A stretch of DNA of 64,000 nucleotides, from the NCBI RefSeq assembly GCF_026410385.1, contig NZ_JAPMLT010000018.1, forward strand, positions 1-64,000. The letters run 5' to 3'. The DNA is from Tumebacillus lacus (lineage in GTDB: Bacteria > Bacillota > Bacilli > Tumebacillales > Tumebacillaceae). Each line of letters starts with the position of its first letter. Positions within the stretch are counted from its first letter, which is position 1. A model generated the notes under the pieces. It was not told where the DNA came from and did not search any database. It saw only the letters and a program-made list of their open reading frames with translations. Shown here in pieces: positions 14,509 through 14,810 of the stretch. The position numbers were made by a program, and so were the translations under genes.

Positions 14509-14541
14509 TCAGCCATGATCCACGTCAGCAGGGACATTGGC

Positions 14542-14628
14542 GAGGGGGTGGGAGGTGGGTGCGGGAGGGTGAGATTGAGACCGCGCAGCGTCTCCGCGAA
14601 CCCTCCGCACCTACCTCCCCCCCCCGCC
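14542..14628. repeat. Second G-rich/C-rich inverted repeat in the ispD-ispF gap
   Basis: The arm around 14551-14570 (GGAGGTGGGTGCGGGAGGGT) pairs with 14600-14618 with one mismatch and one bulge. It is extended outward by G-run against C-run, and GAGAC/GTCTC pair inside. Long C-runs on the right arm make the exact consensus doubtful. Confidence 0.6.
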
Positions 14629-14678
14629 CCCCACCCCCCCGAAATTAAAGATTTTTGGGGGACCCCACCAAGATCCCA

Positions 14679-14760
14679 GGGGGGGGGGGGGGGGGGGGGG
14701 TGGTGGTTTTTTTTTCCCCCCCCGCCCCCCCCCCCCCCCCCCCCCCCCCCCCCCCCCCCC
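14679..14760. repeat. Poly-G then poly-C homopolymer runs (possible assembly artefact)
   Basis: Twenty-two Gs (14679-14700) are followed by a G/T segment, then 8 Cs, one G and 36 Cs (14725-14760). No coding signal continues through. The arrangement, G toward the centre from the left and its complement from the right, fits sequencing reads decaying into G from both sides of a hard hairpin. I treat the bases as unreliable. Confidence 0.8.
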
Positions 14761-14810
14761 ACCCCGGCACCCAACCCCGCATACTTTCACTTTTTAGGAG
14801 GCACCCAACC

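Follow-up and report, generated by a model that had tools for sequence, protein, structure and literature searches.

A poly-G/poly-C block within a hairpin repeat array between ispD and ispF of Tumebacillus lacus is most likely a badly read hairpin

The poly-G/poly-C block that lies between ispD and ispF of Tumebacillus lacus is most likely a badly read hairpin: the letters inside it are not to be trusted, and the hairpin repeats that surround it are real. The block belongs to the window, a stretch of 64,000 nucleotides from one contig (C10) of a draft genome of 4.18 Mb in 26 contigs, and the features discussed here are collected in Table 1. The explanation that we consider probable is that three G-rich hairpin repeats would be arrayed between the two genes, the first two being readable members of a dispersed family, and that in the third the base calls have collapsed to G from both sides. 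The true third element would start its 5' arm with a G run and end its 3' arm with a C run, as several related elements do; sequencing by synthesis would have lost signal in the stem from either side, on each strand the dark cycles would have been read as G, and the assembly would then have joined the G tail to the C head. Two-colour instruments call G upon signal loss, and reads may even end in poly-G (PMC13218037). Illumina errors are triggered by inverted repeats and GGC contexts (PMC3622629). Users of draft genomes should take this as a warning: where a G run faces a C run, letters may have been invented, in this case within a real repeat array that splits a conserved gene pair.

Table 1. 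Features of the window discussed in the text (positions are those of the window)
Feature	Positions	Strand	Remarks
Second-family hairpin (GAGGAGCGAGTT...TGAGCG boxes)	326..420	+	In the 23S-5S rRNA spacer; outside the block
ispD	13712..14398	+	NCBIfam TIGR00453, 261 bits, above cut-off
Hairpin element 1	14433..14508	+	Arms 18 nt, GGGGCGCGGTGGGGTCCA / TGGACCCCACCGAGCCCC; loop 40 nt; covariance model 101 bits
Conserved loop core of element 1, TCGCGAAGTCGCTNNNGCTCCTATCTC	14457..14483	+	27 nt; 8 genome copies, 0-1 mismatch
Hairpin element 2	14544..14625	-	Arms 21 nt, loop 40 nt; covariance model 39.5 bits, E 3.9e-6 in window
Spacer, element 2 to block	14642..14678	.	AT-richer (from the sequence)
Poly-G/poly-C block	14679..14760	.	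82 bp; size and position of a putative third hairpin element; base calls unreliable
ispF	14811..15290	+	NCBIfam TIGR00151, 234 bits, above cut-off; AGGAGG-like ribosome site upstream

The gap between ispD and ispF measures 412 bp (14399-14810), compared with 11-14 bp in six further genomes from the same family and less than 80 bp in 27 of 29 relatives, which bears out the statement of the sequence-only reading that these two genes are normally almost adjacent. Relative to other species, therefore, there is an insertion between ispD and ispF. The view that the excess in the gap is itself an artefact is not supported: hairpin sequence that can be read, and that has copies elsewhere in the genome, makes up most of it. 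The further suggestion of a shorter true gap is probably wrong, unless it is confined to the block itself. The spacer that separates element 2 from the block has no second copy in the genome, as judged from a search with 14400-14800. The 25 nt after element 1 (14502-14526, including CATGATCC) show 76% identity to the ispF start region (14798-14822), a likeness that is perhaps a relic of duplication or perhaps due to chance.

A search of the insert yielded no promoter or terminator signal, and no promoter-like sites were found in 14350-14850. This bears on the alternative, raised in the same reading, that the block is a real phase-variable tract, which would switch ispF expression through changes in its length. 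The tract does lie upstream of ispF, at the place where the gene pair has opened up; however, in addition to lacking such sites around it, it is located outside the reading frames of both ispD and ispF, ispF is a housekeeping gene, and relatives have no such tract. Known phase-variable switch tracts are, moreover, much shorter than those of the block. The alternative is thus left without support and appears highly improbable.

The strong GC-rich inverted repeats noticed in the flank proved to be real. Both hairpins (14433-14508 and 14544-14625) have a DNA-fold z-score of -4.8, and none of 200 shuffles was equally stable. Element 1 has a conserved core, a paired but variable stem, and paralogues on four other contigs. 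Its core occurs in 8 copies on five contigs (0-1 mismatch), the reversed control giving 0, and all 8 copies are located in hairpins. A covariance model run over the whole genome recognizes nine places, the ninth of which is element 2 on the minus strand; its core has diverged, its orientation is opposite to that of element 1, and it contains a C9 run within its 3' arm. Members of this family, family 1, span 71-82 bp with a loop of 35-42 nt, and their arms are G-rich on the 5' side and C-rich on the 3' side, with runs of up to C10. Arrays are also found on contigs C12 and C22, where two and three copies, respectively, stand in mixed orientations. The accompanying hairpin survey covered about 20% of the genome, in contigs picked for holding family 1.

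The covariance model found no match in 13 further genomes of the order, and the core had no match in species-representative genomes or viral contigs, a collection in which the organism's own genome may have been left out. Strong hairpins with long loops are nearly absent from 716 kb of two relatives, with a single one of a different kind. In Rfam, the stretch from the window matched low-complexity microRNA entries only, at scores far short of the gathering scores, and a search with the loci of both hairpin families described here returned nothing but rRNA, tRNA, and a ZTP riboswitch nearby. No published description of the family 1 hairpin repeats was found.

The stems of family 1 are variable in sequence and consistent in pairing. 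In the five copies that can be aligned, 95.6% of cells pair, and both sides have changed in 11 of the 18 pairs, compared with 0-4 pairs in a control with slid partners. Likewise, an arm pairs on average at 17.4 of 22 positions with its own partner and at 12.0 with that of another copy. Family 1 repeats are most likely non-coding, non-autonomous hairpins that duplicate or move, and in which pairing is maintained rather than stem sequence. Mixed orientation inside one array would speak against a strand-specific RNA signal.

A second hairpin family was found through a G10 run on contig C1. Its members carry boxes of the form GAGGAGCGAGTT...TGAGCG, an inner stem and a G-rich outer stem, both variable, and they occupy 12 places in this genome, several of which adjoin rRNA or tRNA genes, including the one in the window. 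The family is present in four other genomes of the same bacterial family; beyond these, one lone short match was the only one among 399 genomes of the class. Here too, the outer arms pair better with their own partner (18.1 of 22) than with another copy's (12.4), and their shared architecture suggests that the two hairpin families are akin. In the copy on C1 (352376-352385, locus L356), the G10 of the 5' arm faces just C7 in the 3' arm, which may reflect slippage or over-calling. Another copy, on contig C20 near 245084 (L378), has a ZMP/ZTP riboswitch (Rfam RF01750) no more than about 700 bp away.

Family 1 resembles bacterial palindromes of the REP/BIME and MITE types in being short, dispersed, and intergenic, and in forming arrays in both orientations. 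However, the stem sequence is conserved in REP elements, whereas it varies in family 1. A conserved loop with a covarying stem inverts the usual pattern of a palindromic repeat and makes arm-from-arm copying worth testing. It is conceivable, but doubtful, that two dispersed families preserve the core of the loop and have their long G-rich stems rewritten self-complementarily in each copy, either because one arm is templated from the other or because selection acts on pairing alone, and that a hairpin of G22 and C36 is a real extreme product of this behavior.

The nearest analogue, by description only, would appear to be the double-hairpin elements of fungal mitochondria, which are likewise dispersed, intergenic, and suspected to be mobile (Paquin et al. 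2000, as cited in PMC5910586). The same holds for the repetitive hairpin-forming elements of sponge mitochondria (PMC2800124). Like family 1, mitochondrial hairpin elements sometimes stand in tandem and are GC-rich in some taxa. In the sponge elements, however, the stem is kept and the loop varies (PMC2800124), whereas family 1 keeps its loop core and varies its stem with compensation; in addition, the mitochondrial elements are organellar and family 1 resides on a bacterial chromosome.

Read directly on the plus strand, the block consists of G22 (14679-14700), TGGTGGTTTTTTTTTCCCCCCCCG (14701-14724), and C36 (14725-14760). The two runs are therefore present as the sequence-only reading had noted, but they do not meet at the common centre that it had proposed, being separated by 24 nt of G/T and then C, that is, TGGTGG followed by T9, C8, and G. 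These are by far the longest G/C runs of the draft genome. Among the G/C runs in 854 kb of it, 95 have a length of 6, 13 a length of 7, and one each a length of 8 and 9, after which come only 22 and 36. Genome-wide, a single other run reaches 12 or more (G12, C20:355251), and only three have a length of 9-10. This run-length spectrum and the rarity of runs of at least 12 show that the block is not due to chance. The G12 run (C20:355251-355262) sits in a strong terminator-like hairpin and could be a further over-called G tract.

Position, size, and polarity point to a third element at this site. The 82 bp of the block, and the 38 nt that are enclosed when G22 pairs with the outer 22 C, both fall within the range of family 1. 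Successive elements start 111 and 135 bp apart at this site; in the C12 and C22 arrays, the distances are about 126 and 139-152 bp. A G-rich 5' arm paired with a C-rich 3' arm is also the polarity of the family, and of the six runs of at least 9 in the genome, two (C9 and C10) lie in family 1 arms, the G10 run belongs to an arm of the sister family, and the block supplies two more. The core TCGCGAAGTCGCTNNNGCTCCTATCTC is absent from the block, and for this reason the block is regarded as the place where a third element probably lies rather than as an established member. The centre of the block was compared by eye with an adapter and with the loop of the second family, and the resemblance was unconvincing and was dropped.

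The same features bear on whether the homopolymers might be real, in which case the G-run and C-run arms of a family hairpin would have been expanded by replication slippage, with loss of the core, into a near-perfect G/C cruciform. The family itself has G before C, and the arms of both families provide graded G/C runs of 7, 9, and 10. However, the jump from 10 to 22 and 36 is abrupt, the arms are unequal, and no such runs exist elsewhere in the genome; furthermore, the G..C composite occurs in just 2 of the 398 genomes sampled from the phylum, this one included (the reverse order in 1). What counts against a collapse of calls over a third hairpin, on the other hand, is that equally strong family 1 hairpins elsewhere in the genome were assembled without poly-G.

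The sequence-only reading had taken the block for a two-colour signal-loss artefact. This stands in part: the plus-strand order of G and then C fits and recurs in drafts, but an artefactual origin of the excess in the gap is not supported, and the artefact reading of the block itself is plausible and unproven. Like the block, the known poly-G artefact shows G runs inward from both sides and in drafts; unlike it, the block is a single site in this genome, a comparison made on assembled sequence. A scan of species genomes gave at least 119 G..C stretches, and all 80 loci among the matches listed belong to whole-genome-shotgun drafts. In 33 genomes with a G..C block, match positions numbered 2877 for G..C and 997 for C..G (29 versus 4 genomes), a ratio that is biased upward because these genomes were chosen for G..C order and overlapping matches were counted repeatedly, and that is therefore taken as supportive only.

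Unrelated drafts and viral contigs contain blocks built in this way (a flank, a G run, a few intervening bases, a C run, and the other flank), mostly with no hairpin in the flanks, as would also be expected of a pure assembly junction, in which two poly-G read tails were joined with no third element, and element 2 or the spacer runs on to the ispF leader. However, the block is the sole one in 4.18 Mb, and it stands at array spacing with the span of the family, which makes such a junction improbable. The flanks of 33 interior G..C blocks in other genomes were no more complementary than permuted ones (p 0.65); blocks elsewhere are thus not enriched beside inverted repeats, hairpin-triggered collapse is no general cause of them, and the idea that such blocks always mark hairpins was dropped. 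When the order counts, the rarity, this flank test, and the literature are weighed together, collapsed calls over a third hairpin come out as probable, and a hairpin of real homopolymers as unlikely.

In viral contigs, the two orders are nearly balanced (26 G..C versus 30 C..G), and 9 of the 11 interior C..G places belong to one genuine repeat family. In several metagenomes, viral contigs (L118, L119, L121, L126, L132, and L137) contain repeated C15-26 followed directly by G15-27, beside short TTGGCACG repeats; this C-then-G repeat is a real repeated element, with an order opposite to that of the block.
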